This document shows, piece after piece, positions 3,071-50,490 of a stretch of DNA of 64,000 nucleotides. The stretch's first letter is position 1. Every line of letters starts with the position of its first letter. The notes under the pieces are model-generated. The model saw nothing but the letters and a program-made list of their open reading frames with translations, made no database searches and was not told the origin of the DNA. The DNA is from Capitulum mitella (taxonomy: Eukaryota; Arthropoda; Thecostraca; Pollicipedomorpha; Pollicipedidae). The stretch spans positions 4,879,822-4,943,821 of the forward strand of contig CP099842.1 in the NCBI GenBank assembly GCA_030062745.1, written 5' to 3'. Both the position numbers and the translations under genes were made by a program.

Positions 3071-3458
3071 CAGTGAGATTATTGATCCCAAGAGGTAGCT
3101 GGCGCCGGAATAAGACGGCAAATTGTTGATGATGCCCGCACAGAGTAAGCCAATCAGCCCGACGACAGAGTAATGGCGTTTCGGATTGTTTTAACATCAG
3201 CGACGACGCAGTCGGCCTAACTGAACAAGATTCGCCGTCGGCTCGACGTTAATTGCCCGAGCGTCGGGGATCTGGAGAAAGAGAAGCATCTTCGTGCGGC
3301 GCCTACCTACGCAGGGCGTCGTGGTTCCGACCACCCGTGGCAGGGCAGATGAATCGAAGCATCGTCATCGAGCGACGTGTGAGCAGGGCAGTAGAGTTCC
3401 AGTGCCTCCGGCAGAGACCCGCCTCCGGGGAACCTCGTCCGCATCGACGGCGTCTCAC

Positions 3459-3702
3459 CTGAGATGGCGAATCCGGAAAAGCCGACAGCCAACATGAGGC
3501 CGACGATCGCGCTGACTTTCGACCTCGAGTAAGCCACCACCAGCAGGAAGGTGGCCTCCATGCCGAAGCCGCCGCAGTTGAACAACTTGCGCACGTTGGT
3601 GGTGGAGAGCAGGTTGTTGCGTCGCAGGTAGTCGGCTAGCTGGCCTCCCACCGGCACCACGAGCGTCATCAACAGGTGGGGCAGAGCCGACAGCGTGCCC
3701 GA
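3459..3702 (-). CDS. VGLUT: VGLUT exon encoding TM8-TM9/10
   Basis: Reads [57 protein letters not shown] and ends [11 protein letters not shown]. The acceptor is CTCCGCCAG and the donor TCAG|GTGAGA (phase 1). The next expected exon (the family's NVNHLDIAPRYA region) was not found between 1 and 3458. Confidence 0.94.
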
Positions 3703-4829
3703 CTGGCGGAGAAGAGCCGCAGCAAAGTCAGCGCGATGGACAGGGTCCGTAACAGGGTCAGCGCGCGTGCACAGGGTCTGGAGCATGGTCAGGGCTGACA
3801 GACCTGGGAGTTACAACCATCATTTTACCGCGGCAGGAAGGCGTCGACCGATTTCCGTATCATATCGACATAACAAGGGACGAGAAATGGCAAGACTATG
3901 TCCACTATTTCGTATCTACGGATCCCACTAACGACGGCACGTCAAGTTGTGCCGAAATATCTAAGTTTTTTTTTATCACATCATGCTCACGTATGCTCAG
4001 AACAATTTACTCAATTAATCTATGGTTCAGGAAAAATGCCCCTGGGAAATCATCAGGAAAAGTCCTTTCGCAGCTCCCGAGCAGTAACTGCGATATGCTT
4101 ACCTTACTGGTGTCATAGTTGAACTCCTCCTCGAAATAGCGGACCTGCAGCAGAATCAGCAGATAGAAGGTCCATGAGCGGGCGATGTTGGCCACCAGGA
4201 TCGCCCACAGCGGCATGGAGGTGAAGAAGGCGCGCCACGGCGTCGACTGCAGCGTCGGGATACTTTGGCCCTTCTGGCCGGCCAGGCTGTCCTCGATGAA
4301 GGTGAGTTCGCGCTCGCTGATGTTCGGGTGCACGGCCGGCTTCTCGAACGACAGCCACATCCAGAAAGCGTACCAGACGAGCGCCACGCAACCTGCGACG
4401 GCGGCGGGTTGGGCAACGTTAGGGCTGTACGGCGGAGGTGGTCAGGCGGAGCTGCACAAGTTAATGGGAGTAGTGTGGGAGTGTGACACCGGACATGCCC
4501 ACAGACGAAGCTTCAAGGGAAAGGTGTAACCTTCAAGAGGTTCAAACTCTTGCACACGAAGTTAATAGCGAGACTGGCTGAGTGGCAAGGTGAGTTTTTT
4601 ACAGCAATGGCAGGCGCGTCGGAAAAATATGCCGTTCACTTACGGAATGCAAATGTATATGCACTGTCACTAAATACATATTCTGGTTAATGCCAAAAGA
4701 TAGGTAAAAGCAAATGAAAAAAACGTTCAGTCCTACAAAGTGCCTAGCAGAAGAAGACATCATGAACTGACAAAAGGAGGTTTCCGGTTAGAAAGGAGAG
4801 CATAAATACCAGAGGGGTAAAAAAATACG

Positions 4830-10800: not shown

Positions 10801-13800
10801 TCAACTTATCACGTGACCTGACTTGACCTCACGTTTCATTCGGCGAACCTTCCTAGGAGGCGCATATAGATTTGCTTGTCTGGTTTCGACGACGTTGAGG
10901 GTCAGCGGCAACCATTTCTATCACCCACAATGCAAACCAGTCCAAATGTCATCATGCATGCGACCTAACATGACCTCTAATGTTGACGTGTCACGGTTGT
11001 ATATCCTTCTGGGGACACATATCAGGCGGTGCCGGGTTAAGGGGTGTGATTAATTAAGCCTAGGTTAAAGGCACCAACGAACAGGTATAAGTCCGCAGAT
11101 GCCGATACGTGTCTAATTTCTCTGATTCGTTCAATTTATACGCTGAAACATTGAGTTAAACATGGCGATTTTCGTGCCGCTGCAAGGCGGGTCCGTAGCG
11201 GAACACGGTATGAAATTGGCAAGAACTAAATTAAGCGTTTCCTTGTTTTTGCGACATTAGCCTTTCAAAGCAATATTTATTGATTCTAATGATTCCTGTG
11301 ATGGTTTCTCACGCTTAAATTCCGAAAAAATCAGTAGTTATCAATCTACCCAGTTGGCGAAACTTTATTCGCGAACGCCTGTTTATTTCTAAAATATGCA
11401 TTTTTTGGAACTTTTAAACTTCTTGGTATCACTCGCAGCTGTGTGAGTCAGTTTTGCCATTTTCTACCCGTTCTGAGTCATTCATCACCGATTTTGACGG
11501 CGGTGGTGCATTTCGGCTCATGACAGTTATTTGCGACCTGGCCTCAGGTCGACGGCTGGAGGTCACTGATATTTTGCCAATGACGGTAACTGGACGTCTG
11601 CATCACCCCACACTAAAAATGTTACAAGGAAAATGTCATCATTTTCCAAAAAACGATAAGTTTAAAAAATGGGGTTGATTTTAGGTAAATGACCCGGAAA
11701 ATTTCCGGAAAATCTGAGATAGAAAATTTATTGCATCTATCACATCTTTAATTCGGTAAAGTTTTTTATGACATCATGTTTTTCGAGAAAGTTATGGGAC
11801 GGTAAACGTTTCTGAACATAGGTCGACCTGACTAGGTCAGACAGCTGACCTAACCTGAGGTCAGAACCTAGACACAAGATGTAAAAATGATCGCGCAAAA
11901 GGCACACAAAGTTTCGTAGCGTTGCGTTCCTTCTTTCTCTCGCAATCTTGGAAAAACCTCGGGGGCGGTCAACGGCCCCCCAGTCGGAGGGAGTTAAAGA
12001 TTCCGCGCTTACCCATATAGCAGAAAATTTGATGGCATTTATGGAAGCTAAATGGTCTGGCATGAGACTGAGATCTTGCTGGGAAACACATATTTATGTT
12101 TCACTCTTAATTCTACTAGGTTCCGGATATGCAATTACGCGGTGCACATTTCATATAAGCCTCTGTATACGCAGTGATGGCCAGTTTGCTCCTCACTACC
12201 AATTTGAAAGTGTGTTTGGTTATTTACAGTAAGGCTGTCGTCAATGCAGACCTTACATAATGCATCACGCAGGTTGAAGTCAAATCATCCCAAACGCAGA
12301 CCTAATTACGAAAAAAGAAGAAAACGGTGATTTTGTTCATTGCCTCCTTTTTGTGTTTCATTATTAATTCTGCTAAGTTCGGGATACTTGCGATACCAAA
12401 CACGATATGTGAGTACATATCTCTCGTATACCTCTGCGTATGCAGTGATTGCCAGTTCGCACCTTACTGCCAGTGTGAAAGCGCGATTGGTTATCTGCAG
12501 TTAGTAAGATTGTTATTGATTCATATCTTGCATAATGCATCAGACATCAGACAGACAGCTTAAAGACATGTCATTCCAAACGTAGACCTCATTGCGAAGA
12601 AAAAGAACTTGTGTTTTTTTGTTTAGTTAGTTTTCTTGTTTTCTTGTTTGTTTAGTTTGTCCCTTTCTTTTCCGGACTACCTCTGCTTGAAACGGCTGGT
12701 TGTCTGACAACGCAAAACAGTCCTCTGATAAAACGAGGCGTGACCATGCCGGACACTAACATATTGTCTCCGTCACGCGTCCAACCCGCACGTGTGGCCC
12801 GGCAGCAGGGCGGAGGGGGCTAAAATTTGCACCCAGTCCGCGTTCAGCGCCGGGCCCTCTTGCGGCGCGACCCCTCACCTCCACCAGGCCCTGCATGATG
12901 CGCAGGATGATGAAGAGGCCCGAGCTGGTCTTGGCCGCCGTCGGCAGCAGGAAGTTCAGCATGCCCGACGTGGCGATAGCCGTGCCGAACACCCTGCGAC
13001 GCAGAGGAAGTAGCTCAGCTGACACAAGGCACAAGTCAGATGGACAGGCTGCGTCCGCCCCCACTGTTAAAACGCATGACAAACAAGGCAAAATTTGTGA
13101 AAAAATATGCGTCAACATCACACTTAACATCAAATAGCTTACAGAAAAAGACGATAAGGCCTGTAGCCTTGATCTGGTAACTGTTGCGTTGGTTGCTTTC
13201 GCGTGTTTGTTTGATTTCAAAGAAACCAAGGTGGTAATGTCACTATCAAATGTGTGATAAAAATACTTGCCTGTTGGGTGGAAACTTTGACGCCAGGAAT
13301 CCCCCAGGAATCTGAGTTACCAGATATCCCCAGAAGAAAGCACTGTCCATCACTCCTTGTTTTCCAGTACCCCAGTCCACATCTGGGATCTGGAAGAGGG
13401 GAAAACAAGTGCCTTGAAGTACACTTTTCCTGACTCATCACTCTGTGGATATGGGCTGATTCGACATTTTGCTGTCACTTTCTCCGGCTATTGCTTGTGT
13501 TTCTATCCTCTATCTCTCCCTCCCTCTCTCTCCCCTCCCTCTCTCTCTCTCTATCATGCGATTCCCCTCGCCGGTGTCCCACTCGCTTCCTCCCATTCTC
13601 TCTCCATCCAGCCCTCAATGAGATAAATCCAATAAGTTTCGCATTACGTGCGCCACGTTGACTTCTGTTTGTCAAGCCGCAGAGAACTTCTTTAATCGCC
13701 TGGTAATGAAGTTCTCACTTTGATCCAGAAACGCAATTTTCCTTCGGTAAAGCAGCTACACCCAAATGAAATTCTAACAAAAATAATGAACAGCTTTCCA

Positions 13801-14838: not shown

Positions 14839-14920
<82 letters not shown>

Positions 14921-17900
14921 AGTTTGATTAAATATGACAGCAACGTTAGTTGTTATCATCTTCCTCCGTAAGCTTTCTGTTCTTTGTACAAATTTCCGCT
15001 CCTTCTCCTCCAGGCCAAAAAGCAGTTCTCCAACATCATGCAACGTTTCGTTCATTTCCTATGAACATCGCCAGGCAAATACTCAACACATTACACATAC
15101 GTATGACATATCTGGCTAAGAACGTGATTAAAATATCATAAATACGAGGTATTACTGGGTAAATGTCGTTTCTTATCGAGATCGTTGGTTTCTAATGAAA
15201 TGACACGAAATTAACTGAACGGTGTTTTGGCAAACTATTTGAAAACGTATGTTTCCTAAAATTTCGGACACTTCCGGTTGACTACATAGAAAAACATAAC
15301 GTTACAAATCTGAACAGCCTCAGACCCTAGCTCCAAGCGGGGGTCCATCAGAGAGAGAGAGTACCCTGGGCGTTGACTTGCCTATTGATAAGAGGATCAC
15401 AATTTCTGATGTACACAGCTTCCAGTATTTGCAGTTTATGTTTTTTTTTTTTTTTTAACGGTGAGTGAGTATGGCCGTCTGGTTCAGGAGTGTTTCCCTG
15501 GTGATGGTGACATGGTGGGCGTCTCTGAGATGTCTCTTAGGTCCGCCGTCTTGTAGGTGCATTATCATCCTCCTCCCTAAGGTCGTTGTAGTATAGCCAA
15601 TGCAGGTACTGTTTGGCCGATGCGCACAGTCACCGGTTGTGCATTTAAATTGGTACACTACATTGGTTTCCTTCACTGAGTGAATCCTGACGTTCAAGAA
15701 CTTCTGCAAGCGGAGAGCACAAAATGCCGATCTGCTGTAAGAAGTAGCCTTATCACGCCAAAACTGCGAAAAGCGGCCCGAGAACTGAGAGGCAAGAAAG
15801 ACATAATGATCCGTCGCGCTGATAAGTCGTCCATCTTCGTCATCCTTAACAAGGGAGACTACATATCTAAGATGACAGACGTGCTTCAGGACACTTCAAA
15901 GTTTGAGGGAATCGCAGAAATCCAATAGATGAGCAGAAAAAGCACCTCAACTTGCTTTTTGATTCAGCCAACGCCCAGATAACAGGGTTGAAATTTCCAC
16001 GAATCACGGGTGACTTTAACCAAGGATACCTCTATGGTAACATCAAAACGCACAAGGCCGGAAATCCAGTAAGACCTATTATACCCCAGATACCGACACC
16101 ATCATACGCCTTGGCCAAGTATCTAATACACTAATTTATATGTAATATCTAATATCTAATACTAATGCTATAATGTAATAATACTATATCTAATGTCTGA
16201 TATTAAATACACTGATTGCGCCGTACATACCGAAAACGTATTCACTGAAGTCGCCGGATCAGTTCATTCAGATTTCAAAAGTAACGGAGAGGCGTGGACT
16301 GATAGCATCCTTGGACGTCCAAAGCCTTTTCACGAACATTCCCGTCAACCAGACGATCGACATCATCCTGGATTATGTCTATCAGCATCCAACCCTACCT
16401 CGACCCAGAGTTTCAAGAGGGCTGCTTGCTGACATGCTCTGGACGTGCACCAAGAAGGCTCCCTTCCGATGCCCTGAAGGCAACCTTTATTATCAGGTTG
16501 ATGGAGTTGCGATGGGCTCACCACATGGCGTGCTGTTTGCAGAAAGCTGCATGACCTATGCTGAGCAAAAGGCCTTAAATGACATGAAAACTAAACCCTT
16601 CACCTATTGTCGCTGCAATGATGATGTCTTTGTCGACATCAAAGATGAAGAAACGCTTCAGACATTAAAAATAAAATTGGAACAAATGTCATGTCTTACT
16701 TTCACTGTTGAAAACAGCAACAACAACAAACTCCCATTCCTGGACATAGACATCGACGCCTCTGAAAGAGCATTCACCACCAAGGTCCACAGAAAAGCCA
16801 TCAACATCTGGCATTGTTTGAAATGTTTGTTTGTTTGAATTGTTTGAATGGACGCAACGAGTGCCCTGACCGCGACAAGAGAAGCGTTATCAGAACTTAT
16901 GTTCATCGCGCTTTCAAATATTGCTCTTCTTGGCAACTCGTTCACCAAGAGATGCAAAGAGTCCGGAAAGTACTGCTGAACAACAACTTTGCCCTCACAG
17001 ACATCGACAACGAAATCAGACCGAAGCTGAACGAACTTTACTCCGAAGAGAACATCACCAGTAATGAACAGAACCCCAACGGCCAAGCCTTCAGTCTCTA
17101 CTACGAAAACCAGATGTCACAATCGTACAAGAAAAATGAGAAGGCCATCCGCACCATCATCACGAAACATTGTCAACCCGTCCACTCAGCGAACAAAATT
17201 CAACTGACCATCTTTTACAGAAGCCCCAAGGTGTCTGCTCTAGTCATGCAAAACAACCTCTCCAAGGATAAGTCATTTGAGAAGGAAACCAACTTAGTGT
17301 ACCAATTTAAATGCACAACCGGTGACTGTGCGCATCGGCCAAACAGTACCTGCATTGACTATACTACAACGACCCTAGGGAGGAGGATGACAATACACCT
17401 ACAAGACGGCGGACCTGAGAGACATCTCAGAGATGCCCACCATGTCACCATCACCGGGGAAACACTCCTGAACCAGACTGTCCATACTCAGTCACTGTTA
17501 AAAAAAACATAAACTGCAAATACTGGAAGCTGTGTACATCAGAGATTGTGATCCTCTTATAAACAGGCAGGTGAACGCCCAGGGTACTCTCTCTCCCTGT
17601 TTGACGGACCCCCGATTGGAGTCAGGATTTGAGAGGCTGTTCAGATTTGTTACGTTATGTTTTCTACGTAGTCAACCGGAAGTGTCCGAAATTTTAGGAA
17701 ACATACGTTTTCAAATAGTTTGCCGGAACACTGTTCAGTTAATTTCGGGTGCGTTCGCTGTTTCATTTCATTTGTGTCATTTCATTAGAAACCAACGATC
17801 GCGATAAGAAACGACATTTACCCAGTAATTCCTCGTATTTCTGATATCCTAATCACGTTGTTAGACAGATATGTCATATGCATGTGCAATGTGTTGAATG

Positions 17901-18426
17901 TTTGCCTGACGATGTTCAAGGGAAATGAAAGAAATGTTGCATGATTTTCGAGAACTGCTTCTTGGTCTGGATGAGAAAGAGCGGAAACTTGTACAAAGAA
18001 CAGAAAACTTACGGAAGAAGATGAAACAACTAACTTCACTGTCATATCTAATCAAACTTGCATTAATGAGAATCTGCTCCCGAAGCATACAAATGTATAT
18101 ATATATGTATATATGTGTATATATACATATATATACATACATATATATATACATATATATATACACATATATATACATATTTTCGAGTATTTCGAGAAGA
18201 GGTTTTCTCGCATGCAAATATCAAACACGACAGCGTTTTCGAACTGCATCTTTTTGTTTTCCTTAAAAAACTGAAACTGAAACTTTTTCTGGGCTAAACA
18301 GCGAACAGTTGTAAGAAAACTAAAAAATATCAAAGAGATAAAGTCAAATATCAAAAGACAAAGAGATTAAATTTCGAAAACGCCATCGTACTTAATGGCA
18401 AAAAAGAGAAAGAAAGAGAGAGAGAG

Positions 18427-25633: not shown

Positions 25634-26845
25634 CCCCATTCCCGGCAGGGGGGCGGAATCCGCCCCCCCCTCGGGTTTTTTGCTTGCCAATTCCAGGCTT
25701 TTTAACGCAGCTTCACGAAACTTGGTCACTTTTCCTATCTATTCTTTCTACGTGCTGTGACAAAATTTCAAAATTCTACTTTGCTCAGGGGCGGAGTCAG
25801 GCAACGTTTTTGGGAGGCACCTCATGCCATTTTTGGCCATGTTAAGGGTAAAAGGAAAATGTCTGCCAAAAACAGAGTTTTTAAGATAGAACTTAAAACT
25901 TTACATGGATGTATAGCTAAATAGTGGGGCCATGTGCAGATGTAATTTTGTTTACCTGAGGTCATTTTAAAAGGTCAGGTCAAGGTCAAAAGTCAAAATT
26001 TGTTTCTTTGCAATAATTTCGGCGCCGTTTTTTCAAATGCCAAATTCGGAATACATATCACGTAGAAGGGTGCCTTCCACTTGTGTACCAAGTTTCAGCT
26101 TGATATCAGGTCGGGTCACGGAGCTATGACCTAAAATGTCAGTACGCGTGCCCTATATCGCAATAGCCATAAAATCAAATTTTTGAAATAGAGTGAATTC
26201 AAATGGTTGAAAACGTTTAAAGATAATATTAAATGTATATGAGATCATTCCAAGTGACCCCAAGGTCACTGGAGGTCATTTAAGGTCAAAGGTCACAAGT
26301 TGATCTGAGAAACGTGTGACCGTGACAGTTCCCCCTTTTTCATGTCCCTGGCACCGCCTATGCTAACATTATACAAACATTGTAATGCGATTTCTACTTC
26401 TTTAGTATAACATGACTAGCAGAAGCCAAAAAAGGGTGTTTGCCTCTTTTGTTCATCCAGTTGTTAGAAAACTAATCCTCCTGTTTTTGAAACCCTGTGA
26501 ACGCCCATGAATTTTCTCAAAATTTCAGATTTGGGGACCCATGGTAAAAGCCCTATCCATAATCTCTCGATTGATGCCAATTTCATCGAAATCGGTCCAT
26601 AAACAACGGAGTTATAAGAAGTCCAAAAGTACCCCCAATTTTGACATTTTTGCCCCCCTGTATCCACAAATTTCAAAATTTTGAAAATTTCGTTTTTATA
26701 AAAATGTAGTTCACGTCACGGCAAATCGATTGCCGTTTGTTGCGATAAAATCGGACAAGTAGTTCTCGAGATCTCAGGGGGGGGGGCCGAATCCGCCCCC
26801 CCCTGCCGGGAATCGGCCATACCGTCTAGCCCTCCGGGAATAGGG
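25634..26845. mobile_element. Non-autonomous piggyBac-type DNA element with TTAA target duplication
   Basis: The 1212-bp element is flanked on both sides by TTAA (25630-25633 and 26846-26849). The left end reads CCCCATTCCCGGCAGGGGGG and the right end, reverse-complemented, CCCTATTCCCGGAGGG, with a second inverted CCCGGCAGGGGGG block just inside. TTAA duplication with termini starting CCC is typical of piggyBac. There is no transposase frame. The interior holds many AGGTCA motifs. A diverged copy is at about 38102-39287. Confidence 0.8.
26283..26295 (+). promoter_or_regulatory. Perfect DR1 nuclear-receptor-type site
   Basis: AGGTCA-A-AGGTCA, a direct repeat with one-base spacing, is the consensus bound by HNF4 or RXR/USP-type receptors. 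Another AGGTCA lies 8 bases upstream and a denser cluster at 25962-25995. The site is internal to the TTAA element; function is not shown. Confidence 0.5.
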
Positions 26846-27559
26846 TTAAGAGCCTTCGATTTGGAGTAGCTGACGTTACAACCTTTCCGCACCTTTTCAA
26901 AAGAAAGATATTACCGGGCCATGGCAGGTCACTGAGTGATGACCTCAAGTCGATTTTCTAAACTTTAGTTTTGTTTTGCTTTTACAGGAGTCTGACGAGA
27001 TAAAAGGTTAGTTTTTATGCAGGGCTGTCTCGCCGTATGCTTCGCACGGCATTTGCACAATATTAAAGTTTCGAAAGGCCAGTGGTCTTTCCGAGACCAG
27101 TTGAGGCCACTGACCTTAGTTGACCTTAAAATGAATTTGAAACGGTTTTAAGGCAATCTTTAGCGCTGATTGAAGTACTGACAGCTATTTGCCCATCCCA
27201 GCGTTAAAAACACTGTTGCGTGACAACAAAACATAGTTTTGGCACTAGCCGCGTCATAAGATGATAAAAATATTTGATCTCTCGTCGACCTGACATTGAC
27301 ATGAAGGAACAAAAGCAATCACTAAATGCTTGGTCAATTTCAAAGCCAAATCGCTACAAAAACATGACTTGCAGGCCCTTCTGCTACGAAACTGCTGCGA
27401 TGACGGCGAAGATGGCCAACAAATAATATTTCGTTCCCCAGCGATCTGTGAGGCCACCAGGTAGCCTGAATGGGTTAAACTGGATGTCCTTAGAAGCACA
27501 AAATGATGAGCTACGCTCTCGTTTTTGTTTCATTGCTCCATGTTAACTAGGAGCGGAAG

Positions 27560-28729: not shown

Positions 28730-29110
28730 ATCCAGCGGCGGCGGGTGGTCAGCGCCGCACGGACCAGATCCAGCGCCGCACGGACCAGATCCGGCGGCAG
28801 ACGGACCAGCGACGTGGCGGCGGCGGGCGGTCAGCGCCACACGGACCCGGTCCGGACTCAGGCGGACCAGGTCCAGTGCCAGAGGTCGGCAGCGTCACAC
28901 GGACTAGATCCAGCGCCGCACGGACCAGATCCGGCGGCAGACAGACCAGCGACGTGGCGGCGGCGGGCGGTCAACGCCACACGGACCCGGTCCGGACTCA
29001 GGCGGACCAGGTCCAGCGCCAGAGGTCGGTCAGCGTCAGCGTCACACGGACCAGATCCAGCGCCGCACGGACCAGATCCAGCGCCAGTGGACGGCCATCA
29101 CTGCAGGACG
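28730..29110 (+). repeat. GC-rich minisatellite, period about 140 bp with inner repeats
   Basis: CGGACCAGATCCGGCGGCAG recurs at 28781 and 28921, with a third partial unit from about 29067. Inside each unit CGGACCAGATCCAGCGCCG is itself repeated. A 285-codon open frame spanning it (28331-29188) is probably produced by the repeat. Confidence 0.85.
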
Positions 29111-32890: not shown

Positions 32891-33749
32891 CGGTGGGGGG
32901 ACTCGCCGGCACCTAGATTGGATTGACGCCAATTTTGTTAGCCGTGCCGCGGCGGATATGGAATCAGGACAGTGCGTGCTCGGCCAGTGTTGGACACTGC
33001 TGCGTGCCCAGGACACAGCCCGACGTCCAAACCAAGACTCTCCAGCGACGACGGGGCGTGTGTTGCGACTACTACGGGGTAGTTTTTTGCGAAGATCTGA
33101 CGTGAAAATTACAGTCCTCTGGTACTTTCCTGAAAGGCAGGTTTTTATGCTGTTTTTTCTGATCACGATGAGCACAGATACTCGTCATCCAGCGAAATGA
33201 AAAAGAAAATGAATGTAAATGTATGAACAAGAAAATGCAGGAGACGTTTTCTAACCCAAGAAGGCTGAGAAAAGGGAAACAATCGAGAAGTCATATCAGA
33301 ACTTCAAAACAAGAGCAAGATCCCAGAATGAAAACGTCGTTTGTATTTTCGGTACCAAAACTACCACACAGGTACGCATATATGTACTGACGTTATGAGG
33401 TTATTCATTGTTTTAGTGGCTATTAATACCCGAGTCACAAGCAAAGGAATAACACATGCAGACATCCACACGCATGCTACAGACCGTCACACCAGCACGC
33501 GCGCATTTCCGGCAACGACGTAGTCTGGCGGCTGGTCTAACAAACCCCACCTTGCGGTCCAGCGGTCTCAGTCCCGTGAGTTCGGGTGGGAGCCGGTTTA
33601 TAGTAGGCCGGACCTGGTTTAGACTTTTGTTCCGGGAACATTCCCCTACGCACCACTGGACCTTTAAACAACGGAAAACGTCCAAATGAAATTCCCAAAA
33701 ATATTCTTGGGGTGTCAGCTTTCTGTTCAAAAGATCATGTTATGTCTTC

Positions 33750-35435
33750 CCGAGACGTTAAAATCTCTATTGACATAACCATTCAAAACAAGAATGCAAT
33801 ACCTGACGTTTTTATCGTTTGTGTCATGCGGGAACTTGAAGTTTCAGAATGATAGGACATTGTTAAGCGCATTGTAGCATCTGGTATGCTTCACGAAAAA
33901 TTTAAATGATGTACTTGCTACTTGATGAGAGGCAATGTATTACAGTGAAGACGGACGAATCATTGCCGGGCTGCCATGTTCCCTTTGACGCAATGATGAT
34001 TTCCAGAAAAAGTTCAGTCGCCTTTGCTACTGTGTTTATGACAGAAATTCTCCGTTTCTCACAAGCTCTGGCACTGGGCGGGTACATCTCGAGAAGACGG
34101 AACGGTCTCGGGTATTCGATCGCAAACGCTGTCTCGTCGCTGCTCTCGGACCGCGTGACACATACGGCTTGCCATGGGGAAGTAGGTGGAAAGAACAGCC
34201 GCACATTAGTAGTTACCAGGGCGTACCGTCATAACACTCTACATTAATCCGTTTCCGTGACGCTCCACCCAGGGCGGTAACGTTGCTGGTGTCTGGTGCC
34301 GGCAGCTGCGCAGATGCGAGGAACGGCAAGTGAATATAGCGCCGGCTGTACAGCGCAGATATTTCTGTGTTTTATTGCCTTATGTGGTATGCTTGATCGA
34401 TGTGTTCAATCTCTAGCTCTCTGTGCAGTTGGAGGTCTGGGAGGCCCGTTGGATGGTGGCGTGCGGCATTATCGTATTGTATGGTCCAGCGGAGATGGCA
34501 GCTCTGGAAAGAGCCGAGTATTTTGGTGTCATTTCGGCTGTGGAACTTCTTCGGTGCGTCAGGACGTCCAGTTGCGGCGGCTGTTAAGAGTAGATCGTAG
34601 ATACAGTCCGGACTGTGGCTACGTGGCTGTGGCTACGGTCCGCTCTCGGCAGCCGCCGCGTCTGGACGTCCTGACGCACCGAAGAAGGTCCACGGCCGAA
34701 ACGACAGCAAAATACTCAGTTCTTTCCAGGTGTACCAACTTGATTGCGCCAAACAATACGATAATGCCGAACGTCACCATCCAGCGGGCTTTCCGAGAAA
34801 TCCAGCTGCATAGATAACTTAAAATGGAACACATCAATCGAGCATGCTAGCATAAAAAACAGAGACATCTGCGTTGTGCGGACGGCGCTGCATTCACTTG
34901 CAGCTCCTCACATGCTGCGCAGCTGCCGACACCAGGCACCAGTGACGCCAACACCCTGCACTGAACGTCTCGGAAATGGACTTTTGTCAAACGTTATGAC
35001 GGTATCCCCATGGTAACTGCGATGTGCGGCTGTTCTTTCTGCCTACTCTCCCAAGGCCAACCGTAAGCGTCACGCGATCTCGACACGTGCCTGACAGTGC
35101 CTGTCAGAAACGGTGAATTCTCGTCATAACACGACTTTAAAGGCGACTGGACTTTTTCTGGGAATCACTATGGCATCAATATGCCACTAGGTGGTTTTCA
35201 ATCCGGCAATCACCCATCCGCTTTCACTGTAATGCATTGTCATGCATCAAGTTGCACATACACTATTTACATCCTTCGTGAAAGATACCAAATGCTACCA
35301 AAGCACTTAACAAGCAATGCCCTGTCATCCAGACACTTCAAGTTTCTGCGTGACGTAAACGATGACAATGCCCGGTGTTATCTTCCTGTTTTACATGCTT
35401 ATGCCAATAAAGACCGTAATGCCTCGGTGGCGCAA
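33750..35435. repeat. Giant palindrome: two arms of about 800 bp in inverted orientation
   Basis: Left arm 33750 to about 34600 and right arm about 34625-35435 are reverse complements along their whole length with scattered substitutions and small indels. Paired landmarks are GGTGCGTCAGGACGTCCAG (34550) with its complement near 34660, CGGCATTATCGTATTGT (34468) with ACAATACGATAATGCCG (34755), GCCGGCAGCTGCGCAG with CTGCGCAGCTGCCGAC, and AGAACAGCCGCAC with GTGCGGCTGTTCT. The centre lies near 34610 with almost no spacer. No transposase recognised. Confidence 0.9.
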
Positions 35436-35459
35436 AACGTGACCTCTTCAACGTCTGTC

Positions 35460-36455
35460 TGCTCCGCGCTCGCACACAACTGATCGTCCGGAAGATGGTC
35501 GCGAGAGAGTCCGGTTCATCGCAGGCCATAATCTCGTGCGTCAGGCTCAGTGTGCTGGTGTCAGCCAGTTGTGCGGCTAGCCAGCCCAGGCTCTCTCGCA
35601 GCTCGGATACATGGTCAAATTTACGGCGTCCAAAGGTGACCCGAGCACCGAAGTTCAAGGCTTTTCAATTTCGTCCACGTTCTTTTTAGTGCCATTACCA
35701 TAAACCGAAATGCAGTATCTGACGTGCCAAAGGACAAGAGCCAGGACCGGACAGACCATGCACAGCATGGCGAAAATGACATCTGGTATGAGATGGCAGG
35801 CATGGGAGAGGCCGGCCAAGGTGCCTGCGCAGCAGCGGCTGACGTGGGACACGTGAGCATCCACGACAGGGTCTGGTCGAAGGTGATGCCCAGATTTTTT
35901 ACCTCGCTGCAAGGTGCGAGGGCTGTGTCACGGAAGGCGACTTGGAAATTAAGCATATTGCGCAGGTTTCAGCGGTTTCCGAAAACAATGAGTTGCGGTT
36001 TTGTTGCGTTAACCTCGAGGGCGTCCGCGCGGAGCCATACAGCCAGAGAGCCGAGGACATTCTCCGTGATGGAGATGAGCTCTAGGAGATCGCTCTTTTT
36101 CCGGTAATAAGCACCTGCGTATCACCCGCATACTCCACGCCGTCGCCCTCCGGGCAAAACGTCGCCATGCCGTTCGTGAAGATTCTGAGCAACAAAGGCC
36201 CCAAGGCCGACCCCTGGAAAACGTCCATCGTGTTCGCCAGCGGTTGTGGAGCCCCTGCGCCTGGTAGTGTGACGTTCTGCGTGTGTCCACGAATGTAAGA
36301 GGCGAACCGAGTGGTGTCGACTGCGTGCAGTTGGAGTTTTCGCAGCAAGAGGTCGTGGTCGATGACGTCGAAGCAGAAGCTCAGATCGATCAGGCACAGT
36401 AGTGATATGTCCCCGTTATCGGTAGCGGAGAGGGTGCGCTCGGTGAATCACGTGT
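35460..36455 (-). mobile_element. CR1/L2-like LINE fragment (reverse transcriptase and C-terminal region)
   Basis: The minus strand reads LLCLIDLSFCFDVIDHDLLL, then SYIRGHTQNV, VFQGSALGPLLL (the usual PQGSVLGPLL block), a decayed YADDTQ motif (YAGDTQ), NLGITFDQTLSW, then LNFGARVTFGRRKFDHVSEL, typical of the C-terminus of CR1/L2-type LINEs. The frame changes more than once and the 5' part (endonuclease) is missing, so it is a dead 5'-truncated copy. Its 3' side meets the palindrome's right arm. Confidence 0.85.
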
Positions 36456-38101: not shown

Positions 38102-39287
38102 CTCTATTCCTATATGGCGGAGGTGGGGGGGGGGGGGGGCGCTTCGGAAGCCCCTACCATCCGTTGTTTTCCTTGTCCTGCCCGGGATTCTTAAAGAGGC
38201 TTCGGAAAACTTGGCCACTTTTCCTACTTCTTCTTCCCACGTATTATACCAGATTTTCATAACTTTGTTTTCCGAGAGGCGGAGCCAGGCCACGTCTTTG
38301 AGGGCACCTCAAGCCAATTTAGCATTGCTGAAGGTAAAAGACAATGGCTGTCAAAAATAGAATTTTAAGATAAAACTTAACGTCGTATGTGAGTGTAAAG
38401 ACGAAGAACTGGGCAAAACACGACAAAATCTGGGGTTAATTCATTACGTCAGGTCAAGGCCAGAACTCAGGGTTTAATTTTATGTAATTGTTTTTAGCGT
38501 TGATTAAGGAAAACGAAACGCATGTCACTTGGCAGAGTGCCCTGCATTTTTGTTTCCCGTTTCAGACTGATATCAGATCAAGTCACGAAGTTACGGCCTA
38601 GAGTATCTGAGCGTTCTGGATCTGCGCACTTACCCTATACCGCGACGCCGTTAAACAGGACCGTTAGAAATAGAGTAAATTTAAATGACTGAAAACCATT
38701 TCAAACACTTCGAGATTAACTCAAGTTCATTCCATGCGATTCTAAGGTCATTTGAGGTCATTTAACGTCAAAGATCGTAAGCTGACTCAATGAGCATGCG
38801 TTAATGACTGTTCCCGTTTTCCATGTCCTGACACCGCCTGTGCCAGCATATAAACAATATATTAAAACTTGTAATTCTTAAGCTTAGCATGACTAGAAAT
38901 TGAAAACGACTGGATCATATTTTTAGCTTTTATTTCAATTTGGTTTTTAAAATGCTCCATCCATTTTCCAAGCCTTGAGAACGCCTGTGACGTTTCTCAA
39001 AATTCTTTGCAAGTGGGCCGAAGAAAAAAGTCTGTCGAATACCTCTCGCTTCACACCAGCTGCATCGTTGCTGGTCCATAGCCGTCGGAGAAATACGGCG
39101 AAATACCCACCCCCCTTTCCGACTTTTGCGCGCCTATATCCACTCCTTTTAAGATTTTCAAAACGAATTTTTAAAGCGATGATTTCTGCATCAGAGGCGT
39201 CGATTGCCGTTTGGTGCAATGCAAGCGAACGGGTAGTTCTCGAGATCTCGGAGGGGGGGCCTAATAATCCCCCTATACGGGAATGCC
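38102..39287. mobile_element. Second copy of the TTAA-type DNA element, more degraded
   Basis: Aligns with 25634-26845 along its length. Shared blocks include CTTGGTCACTTTTCCTA-like, GGCGGAG(T/C)CAGGC, GGCACCTCA(T/A)GCCA, TTTGAGGTCATTTAA-like, CCATGTCCTGRCACCGCC and GTAGTTCTCGAGATCTC. The terminal G tract and CTATTCC remain on the left, but the flanking TTAA is no longer intact (TTAG) and the right end is blurred. Confidence 0.75.
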
Positions 39288-39289
39288 CC

Positions 39290-41390
39290 GTTGCGCTGAA
39301 GGTACCGAAATGGTTTATCAATATAACGTAATGAACATCCATAGAAATCAAATTATTACCATGTGTCTTCCAAGTACTTACTGTGTTGCTAAAGCTTTTG
39401 CGCAAACCTGACAAAAAGCGCACCGTGAGTGCAGATAGGACAATATATGAAACTCTTTATAGTAAAGGGCATGAAAACTGCCCGGGATCTGCAACCCAAA
39501 GCGATTAATATCTGGACACAAATTCAGTTTTTAACTTACATTAATCTGTTTGTAGTGTATGAAACCCGAGGAGAAACGGGACGCGGACATATAGTTCAGA
39601 ATAACTGTAGACATTCAAACTGTTTAAACGTAAGAATTGATCAATTTGAGCGGTTTGAAGGCTTACAGCTATTCCGAGTTATTTGTCCACGCCCCCTTTT
39701 CTCTTAGACTGGACATTGTCCTGACCACATCACGAACAATTAAGTCTTCATTGAACTGTTACATTACGAACCTTACTACAAACTTTTTACTTCGAATTGT
39801 TTAACTTAAGGAAATATGTCAATATTTTTTTGTAGCGGACTTTGCCAAGCTAATGCCAAAGATTACATGAAATGGGAGTAATATGTTCTGCGACCAGGTG
39901 TGTTTATAATCTGGTAGCGTTCCACAGTTTTTTAATACTATTATCATACTGTTTTCGCGACGACATAGACCATAGGCCACAGTCCATAGGCGCCCCAAAA
40001 CAGAGCGTCCACGCAGTTTTGCTTTTTTTAGTAATCCAGTTTCATATCTGTTCTCTCAGTACTGAGTGGGCCCAACGCAATTATATTTCAGCAGACAGTC
40101 AGATTCTCGGTTTGGGCCTCGTCTGATCGTGTACCTCACATGACGCAGTCAATGACTTACTGTTTCCAGACTGATTGAAGCCATAGAAATGCTGTGATTT
40201 GTTGTGCAGTGAGCTTCCAGCAACAAAATGCTTCAGCATGTGCGAATAGTAACGCATTATGAACTCCCTACGAAAATACAGTTTTGCTTACGGAACCCCC
40301 AACCCCCAGTTTCCGTGACATCCAGAGGCGTCGTATTCACACGGAGGTTCGAATCCAGCATTAAGTCGGGCAGCGGTAATTACATTTGTTCTGTGGGCGG
40401 CATGTTTTCGGAACCTAGTAATCTTAATTTCTTGCGGTGTGCGGTACATGAAACTACGCATGATAGCACCTTAAGCACTATGTTCTATGGCCTTCTCCAA
40501 AGCGGCTAAACATTTCCAGCCGGTGGAGAAATGTTTCTGTTGGAAAAAGTACGGGGTATCCAGCGCGCAGGCCGCGTGGTCATTCATTCCAGATTGATAT
40601 GGATTCCAAATTAATGTCCATATGCGAAATGGATCATATAAACGACGGGCCAAATGTCCATGCCCTCGGCATGACGCATTTTTTAATGCATCAGCGCCAG
40701 CAGTAACTTACCTTGCATTTTCACTTCATCAGTTCCGGTAATTTACGGCATGATGAGTAACATGAAATGTTACTAAGCGAAATTCGCCCCGAACTGTCTG
40801 CAGAATGTGTGAACTTGGCGCTCTAGTTTTGAGGCTACCATTGAACGTTTTAATAAGAACACATTGCTGGAAGGTTTTGCGACATCGTTTCAAGACGTTC
40901 AGATAGTTCCCAGTATAGAAAAGGGGAGCACGTTCCAAACAGACTGTGAAATGCACCCTGGAGCAATCCGAAGATGCAAGACGGTTTGAGGAAACAGGCC
41001 GATAGGACAAATATGCTATGGTTTTAAGTGGCTGCGAAAGACAAGATGGAACACTAATCCCTTCAATTTGTAGATTGTAAACATGTTCTTATCAAGTTTT
41101 GCCTGCACCCATCCGCAAAAATTACACATTGTGCAAAAGTCCTCAACTAGCTTTGACCTATTAATCATTCTAACTGGAAACAGTCCGAAACAAATGTTCA
41201 CACACTCCTGATAAAAGGGAAATTCTGAACCTCCTTTTCACGAAGAGCGTTCAAAGAGATGCCAATTTCAAGAAGCTTAAGATCACTCTGACACCCTCAG
41301 AACCATGCAAACAATGTCCCAGTCTCCACAGGGCTCGGAAACACGAAGCTATGGTCCTAGACGTCCCGCAAGGCAACCTGAACATCTGTC
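39290..41390. other. Spacer; no gene seen
   Basis: AT-rich DNA without a recognisable exon. A lone GGTTCGAATCC word at about 40347 lacks a partner A box. If 41406-41518 is an exon, this may be its downstream intron. Confidence 0.35.
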
Positions 41391-45489: not shown

Positions 45490-47165
45490 ACGGCACAAAT
45501 TTGACTCTCCTAACACCGCAGATAATTTCCGTCCCATCTTGATGCTGTCTGCACTCACCAAGCTACGTGAAAATATATCTAAGCAGCTATCTTTGTATCG
45601 TGTCACAGATAATCCGCTCTTTTCTTCTCAACGCAGACCTTGTTATTCCACTGTTCGAAGGAGGATGCCCTTATGGACGCTGTCGAGCGAATCAGGCGTC
45701 GAATCGACGCATAACACATAACTGCTGTCAGTTTTCATCGAGCACAGAAGAATTTTTGACAATGTTGACCACGGTGTTCTGACAGAGCCATAGGGATACG
45801 ACATCGAACCGAGACGGCTTGAAAGCTACCTCAGTAGCCCGGCGGCCGTTAGTGAAGGGCGGCTCCTTTTTCCCTTCCTTTATCCCATGGTGTCACTTAG
45901 GGTTCCCTTGTTGGTCCCCTTACTGTTCAGCATCTTCACGAAGGACCTCCCTTCGTATTCATCGCACGGATGTCTATTGTTATACGCCGACGACACCCAG
46001 GTGCTGGTCTCTGTGCTTCCTGATCACCCGTCTTCAAATTTCGGAAGAGGAATACTATCCTCGTCGTGCAGTCATATTTGCCATCCATTTCCCTGCTGAT
46101 GAGTCCAGCTGAAACCACCCTTCTCCTTGCCGAAACTCGCCAGCCCTCAGGGAAACTTCTTCCCATTTAACATTGAAAACCACACACCAACGCCCTCGTC
46201 GTTGTAAAGATGCTGGGCGTGACCATCGACCGTACCCTCTCCTAGAAGAAGCAAACGTCAATTGCCACCACAAAGTGCAACTCCGTCCTGTTTTGCCTTA
46301 CACAAAATCAGTCAATTTCTGACGCCGGAAGCCCGTTAAACTCCTGATGCAGAGTCGTGTTCTCCCACGCATCCCATAGTTCCTCTCTGTTCGTGGCGGG
46401 GCTGCGATGGGCGGCGTGAAAACGACGCAGAGGGCAATTCACTACGGGGCCAGGATCGCGCCTGCGACTTGGGGCCGTGATCCTCTCAGACTGTGGCAGC
46501 TCTTAGCTGGTGTAGTGTGCGGGACTTGCCACCTACCGAGACATCCTGGCTGTCTTCAGGGCTCTTAACCCTCTTCCCGAACCCATGACGCTAGGAAGCA
46601 TTGCTGTTTAAGGGGACTTATTTGTCCCCCCTAAGATCTCGGTAATTACCGGTCCGCTTTGATCAAAACAAACGGCGGGCGATTCGCCATGACGTTAAGT
46701 ACATTTTGATAACGAGAAATACTGAAAATCGTTTTAAGGGGTGTGGCAGGGGGCATGAAAATTCCGGAAATGGTGAGCAAAACAACGGAGAGATGGGGGC
46801 TCCTGAAGTGTCCCCTTTTACCAGAGGTGTTAACAACCCGCGGGCCCCGGTGGCGGTCCGGTCCTTGTTTACCCGGCGTGCTGATATTTTGGGCTGTCTC
46901 ACCCGTCCTTTGGTCGTGGGCGCCCCAGAGCCACCACCGTTTCGCCTCCTCCTCACGCAGGGTATTCTCCTACCGAGCAGCTTCGTCCTGGAACCGCCTG
47001 CCGCCAGCCATCGCCGCGTCTTCCTCCCAGTATGATTTTATTTCACGTTTTGACCGCCGTTTGTTGCAACCGCGATTTTCTCCTTCCTTTTGGCATTGCT
47101 TGTCACCGTTTTCATTATTGTTGCTCCTTGCTATCGTCTTACCAGTCTTTCACTGAGCTCGGTGC
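45490..47165 (+). mobile_element. CR1/L2-like LINE fragment (reverse transcriptase to C-terminus)
   Basis: The plus strand reads NFRPILMLSALTKLRENI (RT block 1), MDAVERIRRRID, a decayed PQGS..GPLLFSIFTKDL block near 45905, LLLYADDTQVLVS (catalytic YADD intact) near 45975, MLGVTIDRTLSW near 46210 and FSYRAASSWNRLPPAIAA near 46970. There are several frame changes and stops. It has the same orientation as 44080-44370. Confidence 0.82.
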
Positions 47166-49680: not shown

Positions 49681-50490
49681 ATGAAGTTTTCTAAGACTGC
49701 CGGCGCGCTTCAAGAACGTGAAATTTGCAACAGCTTACCTCACATCATTTCCGCATAAAAACACATTGGCAGGTCACGACAGGTCACCGAGTTATGACAT
49801 CATTTTCCAAGCCTTGCAAGACGATTTTCTAGATCTGGGCTACCCATCTGCTTCTTGCTCATGAGTCTGATGAGATTTGGGGACACTTTTTGACGCGGGA
49901 CTGTTTAAGTGCATGCTTGATAACGTTTTGAGTTTTGAAAGGTCAATGACCTTTTCGAAGCCAAGTGAGGTTACTGACTTTATATAAGCTCAAGATGTAT
50001 TTAAACCGGTCCAAGAACAATTCTTGGGAATGATTTCAGTAACGGTCGCTATTTCTATCGTTCTCGATAATGAGAACTTCATTCTGTAGCTAAGAAACAT
50101 GGCTTTTAGTACTAGTCGCGTTTCTAAAGATGCTAATGATATTTGACCTCTCGTTGACCTGACCGTAACGTGAAGAAAGAAAATCGAGCACTGAATGCAA
50201 GGTTTAGTCAGTTTTAAAACCATTTTGCCACAAAAGCATGACGTTCAGGCACTTCCGCTATACGACTACTACGATGACGATAGAGACGGAAAACGACAAA
50301 ATGCTCTCTTCGTCAGTGACCTGAGAGGTCGCCGGAGACATGAATGAGTCGAATTGGGTGGAACTCGAATCAGAAAGAAACAAGCTACACGCTTTTTTTA
50401 TTTCACTGCACTATCTCAATTACAAGCAAAATGGACACTGGGGTTGCAAACCCTTCGTTGGGTGCACGTAGATGAAAATCCTTACTTCCG
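49681..50490. repeat. Dispersed repeat B, copy 2, lacking the TTAA element
   Basis: Begins ATGAAGTTTTCTAAGACTGC and runs directly on through CGCTTCAAGAACGTG into sequence matching 26850-27560. This is the arrangement expected before the 1.2-kb element inserted in copy 1. Confidence 0.72.

Follow-up and report, generated by a model that had tools for sequence, protein, structure and literature searches.

The 64,000-base stretch of DNA analysed here, referred to below as the window, contains a giant palindrome with a total length of ~1.7 kb, whose two arms are ~23% diverged and separated by 20 nt. The best-fitting reading, one of the origins put forward in an earlier note on this DNA, is that ~850 bp of noncoding animal DNA was duplicated once, long ago, in inverted orientation; the copies would have been joined by fold-back with no or almost no spacer and would since have decayed neutrally as a sequence with no function. 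We adopt it tentatively, at slightly under an even chance, with a dead transposon of the long-TIR or foldback type close behind.

Results

The inverted repeat was confirmed in a gapped arm-to-arm alignment (Table 1), and relaxed blastn reproduced the outer limits of its arms. Its self-palindrome score of 723 bits is far beyond chance: when the window was shuffled 40 times in 400-base blocks with dinucleotides preserved, no score exceeded 56.1. The arm-to-arm local score was 362, and 100 mononucleotide shuffles reached at most 18.5. A giant, near-perfect palindrome with almost no spacer had been reported at 33750-35435. Its size and the near absence of a spacer were borne out, but the arms are not close to perfect, with 622 identical positions in 810 ungapped columns (76.8%), and the limits given were too narrow by 25 and 17 bp. 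At the centre, a TCCGGA dyad with a perfect half-length of 7 is followed by CTGTGGCTACGTGG, which closely matches the beginning of the right arm and represents a 14-nt tandem duplication; if this duplication is discounted, the spacer closes to zero at the dyad. The dyad itself proves little, since dyads of equal length are common in the window (101 centres in 64,000 bases).

Table 1. Features of the window, with positions counted from its first base
Feature	Positions	Strand	Remarks
Vesicular glutamate transporter exon (part)	3310-3786	-	PDB 8sbe, E 1.1e-31
Possible further exon	12756-13229	-	Judged by eye; no Pfam match
Decayed retroelement, presumably Penelope-like	14862-18124		Inverted repeats on either side (14862-15742 and 17213-18124) share 82% identity at full length and 92% in an ungapped, trimmed comparison
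RT-like ORF of this retroelement	16311-16838		RVT_1 E 0.0059, below cut-off
Direct dispersed repeat, ~1.1 kb	25693-26800 and 38182-39273		70.5% identical ungapped; a part recurs, inverted, at 46626-46729
Perhaps another old repeat	27038-27422 and 49902-50296		Likeness at the translated level (tblastx)
Minisatellite	28748-29087		140-bp unit, 2.4 copies, inner 21-bp period
Left arm of palindrome	33725-34606	+	882 nt; gapped alignment against reverse complement of 34627-35452
Longest exact run common to both arms	34546-34571	.	26 nt; permutation p 0.16, not above expectation
Centre	34607-34626	.	Dyad TCC-GGA at 34609/34610, then CTGTGGCTACGTGG
Right arm of palindrome	34627-35452	-	826 nt; gapped alignment, relaxed blastn
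ORF, presumably C-terminal part of LINE	35338-35664		Assigned by motifs; without Pfam match
Decayed LINE (non-LTR retrotransposon) fragment	35453-36447	-	Adjoins outer end of right arm
Part of this LINE fragment with RT match	36085-36447		RVT_1 E 2.8e-6, 27.6 bits, slightly below the 29.6 cut-off
Small, old, spacer-free palindrome	39567-39707		141 bp, arms ~71% alike; 4 kb from the large palindrome
Second decayed LINE-like fragment	~45.9-47.07 kb	+	Distantly similar to LINE beside palindrome (blastn E 5e-4); best tblastx piece, at ~45.9-46.3 kb, E 5.4e-6
C-terminal piece of second fragment	46935-47066		Taken to be LINE-like by motif

Spacer-free inverted repeats are a typical product of faulty assembly or cloning, which speaks for a fold-back artefact. 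The arms are, however, separated by 188 substitutions and 14 gaps, and their similarity stops at both outer limits, so that the flanks differ. The earlier exclusion of a fresh fold-back is thus upheld, and an artefact is hardly credible. The substitutions comprise 125 transitions and 63 transversions (K2P 0.286), and the gaps occupy 88 columns, the longest being 56 nt. By comparison, the inverted repeats around the putative Penelope-like element elsewhere in the window have diverged far less (K2P 0.084, from the trimmed ungapped count).

The differences had been described as evenly spread, which holds roughly, apart from a slight clustering of mismatches (269 runs, compared with a mean of 289 on permutation; 2.5% of permutations were as low) and a weak rise in identity toward the centre. 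Identity is 70.4% in the outermost sixth and reaches 79.3% in the innermost two; the trend is not significant (Spearman p 0.065; outer versus inner half p 0.16), and gene conversion at the centre was rejected as its cause. Differences are more frequent at sites in CpG context than elsewhere (42 of 135 versus 146 of 674), and CpG is not depleted, with observed/expected ratios of 1.03 in the window and 1.05 to 1.10 in the arms. On the evidence of one copy, the divergence may either have followed or have preceded the duplication.

No coding signal was detected in the arms. Mismatches fall almost equally on the three codon phases (68, 58, and 62, each of 270), 12 of the 14 gaps have lengths that are not a multiple of three, and 0 of 23 stop-to-stop frames of at least 50 aa overlapping the palindrome reached the Pfam cut-off, the sub-cut-off matches being DUF4812 (the best, E 0.041), BPTI_nem (0.11), hemP (0.14), and TIMP (0.2). 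On these grounds, a coding origin of the arms was rejected. Across the whole window, no Rfam family was found at gathering thresholds and a tRNA scan returned no hits; the whole palindrome had no match among phage records, and the 26-mer shared by the arms had none among viral and prokaryote contigs, as expected for animal sequence. These searches agree with the earlier remark that no known family was recognized in the palindrome; they covered Pfam, Rfam, phage, viral, and prokaryote collections, none of which is an animal-repeat library.

Most of the palindrome lies inside a predicted long RNA hairpin, as the RNA of 33925-35250 is predicted to fold into a single hairpin of -832 kcal/mol over 1,326 nt, a value without a shuffle control at that length. 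Such a fold, which the earlier note proposed as a natural source of siRNA, is what a functional hairpin-RNA locus would produce if a transcript through both arms were diced into siRNAs that silence an arm-like gene, and inverted-repeat hpRNA loci do exist in Drosophila, according to PMC10317233. The predicted fold is also the one positive point that would speak for a functional gene of this kind. If selection had kept a hairpin on the plus strand, G:U-type differences should outnumber A:C-type differences; the two kinds of transition number 64 and 61, giving no wobble bias. The longest perfect run, of 26 nt, is not unusual either, so that selection on RNA pairing was rejected as having left no signal in these two measures. 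Furthermore, nothing else arm-like is present within 64 kb, and the hpRNAs described in PMC10317233 are young and short-lived, in contrast to arms as diverged as these. We therefore regard a functional hairpin-RNA locus as unlikely, and its narrower form, in which the predicted siRNAs would target a gene at another locus with which the hairpin would have co-diverged, as somewhat less likely still.

The window is animal DNA, judging from the vesicular glutamate transporter exon within it. Next to the palindrome, the coding part of the LINE fragment appears to stop at the right arm, a placement that we base on presumed LINE motifs. No continuation of this LINE was seen past the palindrome: when the second LINE's C-terminal piece was compared with the left flank, no tile rose above background (best tile rank 79 of 5,106 tile-frames), although the two LINEs may be too diverged for this negative result to be firm. 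One left-flank frame that by eye looked faintly like a LINE C terminus was unconvincing and was rejected as the remainder of the element. Two LINE reading frames had no relatives among viral contigs.

This setting bears on the possibility that the palindrome is a dead non-autonomous DNA transposon, made up almost entirely of long TIRs (foldback-type, TIR-only Galileo-like, or a palindromic MITE), that inserted in or beside the LINE and then decayed. We consider this a serious contender. Mobile elements account for many of the long palindromes in animal genomes, which counts against a duplication; the outer limits are sharp and common to both arms, and the LINE fragment adjoins the right end, as an insertion could give. 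Long-TIR elements such as Galileo also have foldback-like arms, as stated in PMC4168063. Against this, nhmmer searches with E values up to 10 found no second copy of a palindrome arm in the 64-kb window, and the terminal direct repeats that scored best, TCTGT and, inside the arm ends, TTCAA, are just 5 bp long and were equalled or exceeded by 60 of 300 random pairs, with the proviso that an old element may have lost its target-site duplication. The ends of a working transposon should be its best-kept part. Here, conservation is lowest in the outermost sixth, and no conserved terminal motif was found at both ends, a pattern that in a single copy could also result from decay after the death of the element. 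In addition, the LINE was not seen to reappear on the far side, within the limits of the comparison described above. The foldback-type element suggested in the earlier note is a possible origin, though one for which no convincing target-site duplication, conserved termini, or second copy in the window was seen.

Two independent insertions of one repeat family, brought tail to tail by chance, would explain the high divergence without invoking a long-lived perfect palindrome. Both copies would, however, need identical full limits and almost zero bases between them, and no third copy is present in 64 kb; this coincidence is improbable.

Four further palindromes of at least 46 bits were found in the window (68.3, 66.6, 53.5, and 46.8 bits), where the 40 shuffles gave six matches of at least 46 bits with a maximum of 56.1. 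Two of the four have a G+C content of 76 to 78%, and one overlaps a tandem repeat. A local pattern of palindromes was rejected, and only that at 39567-39707 resembles a true small old palindrome.

Discussion

The data presented here favor an inverted duplication. The arms match in their inner and outer limits and the centre closes to zero spacer; there is no codon phase, no wobble bias, and no frame at the Pfam cut-off; and no other copy in 64 kb and no convincing target-site duplication were found. The slight, not fully random clustering of mismatches is a point against a neutrally decaying duplication. The likeliest route is that a strand that had broken or stalled folded back at the short TCCGGA dyad at the centre and was then copied back along itself, producing the inverted duplication. 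Later substitutions, the 56-nt indel, and the small central tandem duplication would have broken the symmetry, and this would also have stabilized the palindrome enough for it to persist. The fold-back step and the absence of function are the parts of this reading that we infer.

Large palindromes that lack a spacer are generally regarded as unstable. In yeast, engineered palindromes are cleaved, as reported in PMC7467729. In light of this, an old spacer-free palindrome would illustrate how such a structure can survive once its symmetry has decayed. If the palindrome instead belonged to a repeat family, it would add a long-TIR element to the genome. Unless further copies across the genome or small RNAs come to light, the palindrome appears to be an unremarkable old relic and not a working element.

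Among known systems, the foldback and long-TIR elements FB, Galileo, and Tetris resemble the palindrome in having very long inverted arms with little or no middle. It differs from them in that its ends are not conserved, the window contains just one copy, and no believable target-site duplication was found; Galileo has target-site duplications of 7 to 8 bp according to PMC4168063, compared with a best direct repeat of 5 bp here. Drosophila hairpin-RNA loci are likewise long inverted repeats whose RNA would fold back on itself, but the palindrome carries no sign of constraint on pairing.

The fold-back inverted duplications of yeast and humans may share with the palindrome an inverted copy whose join lies close to a short dyad, for which transposon hallmarks are unnecessary. 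In yeast, fold-back synthesis starts from short hairpins, and PMC7467729 gives median loops of 4 and 3 nt with mre11 or sae2 defects and of 36 nt where MRE11 and SAE2 are working. Human fold-back inverted duplications have, according to PMC3907307, spacers of 766 to 70,466 bp and far larger arms, whereas the palindrome described here is 1.7 kb long, essentially spacer-free, and old. Measured against these human spacers and the 36-nt yeast loop, a spacer-free join is not what fold-back usually yields, which counts against the preferred reading.
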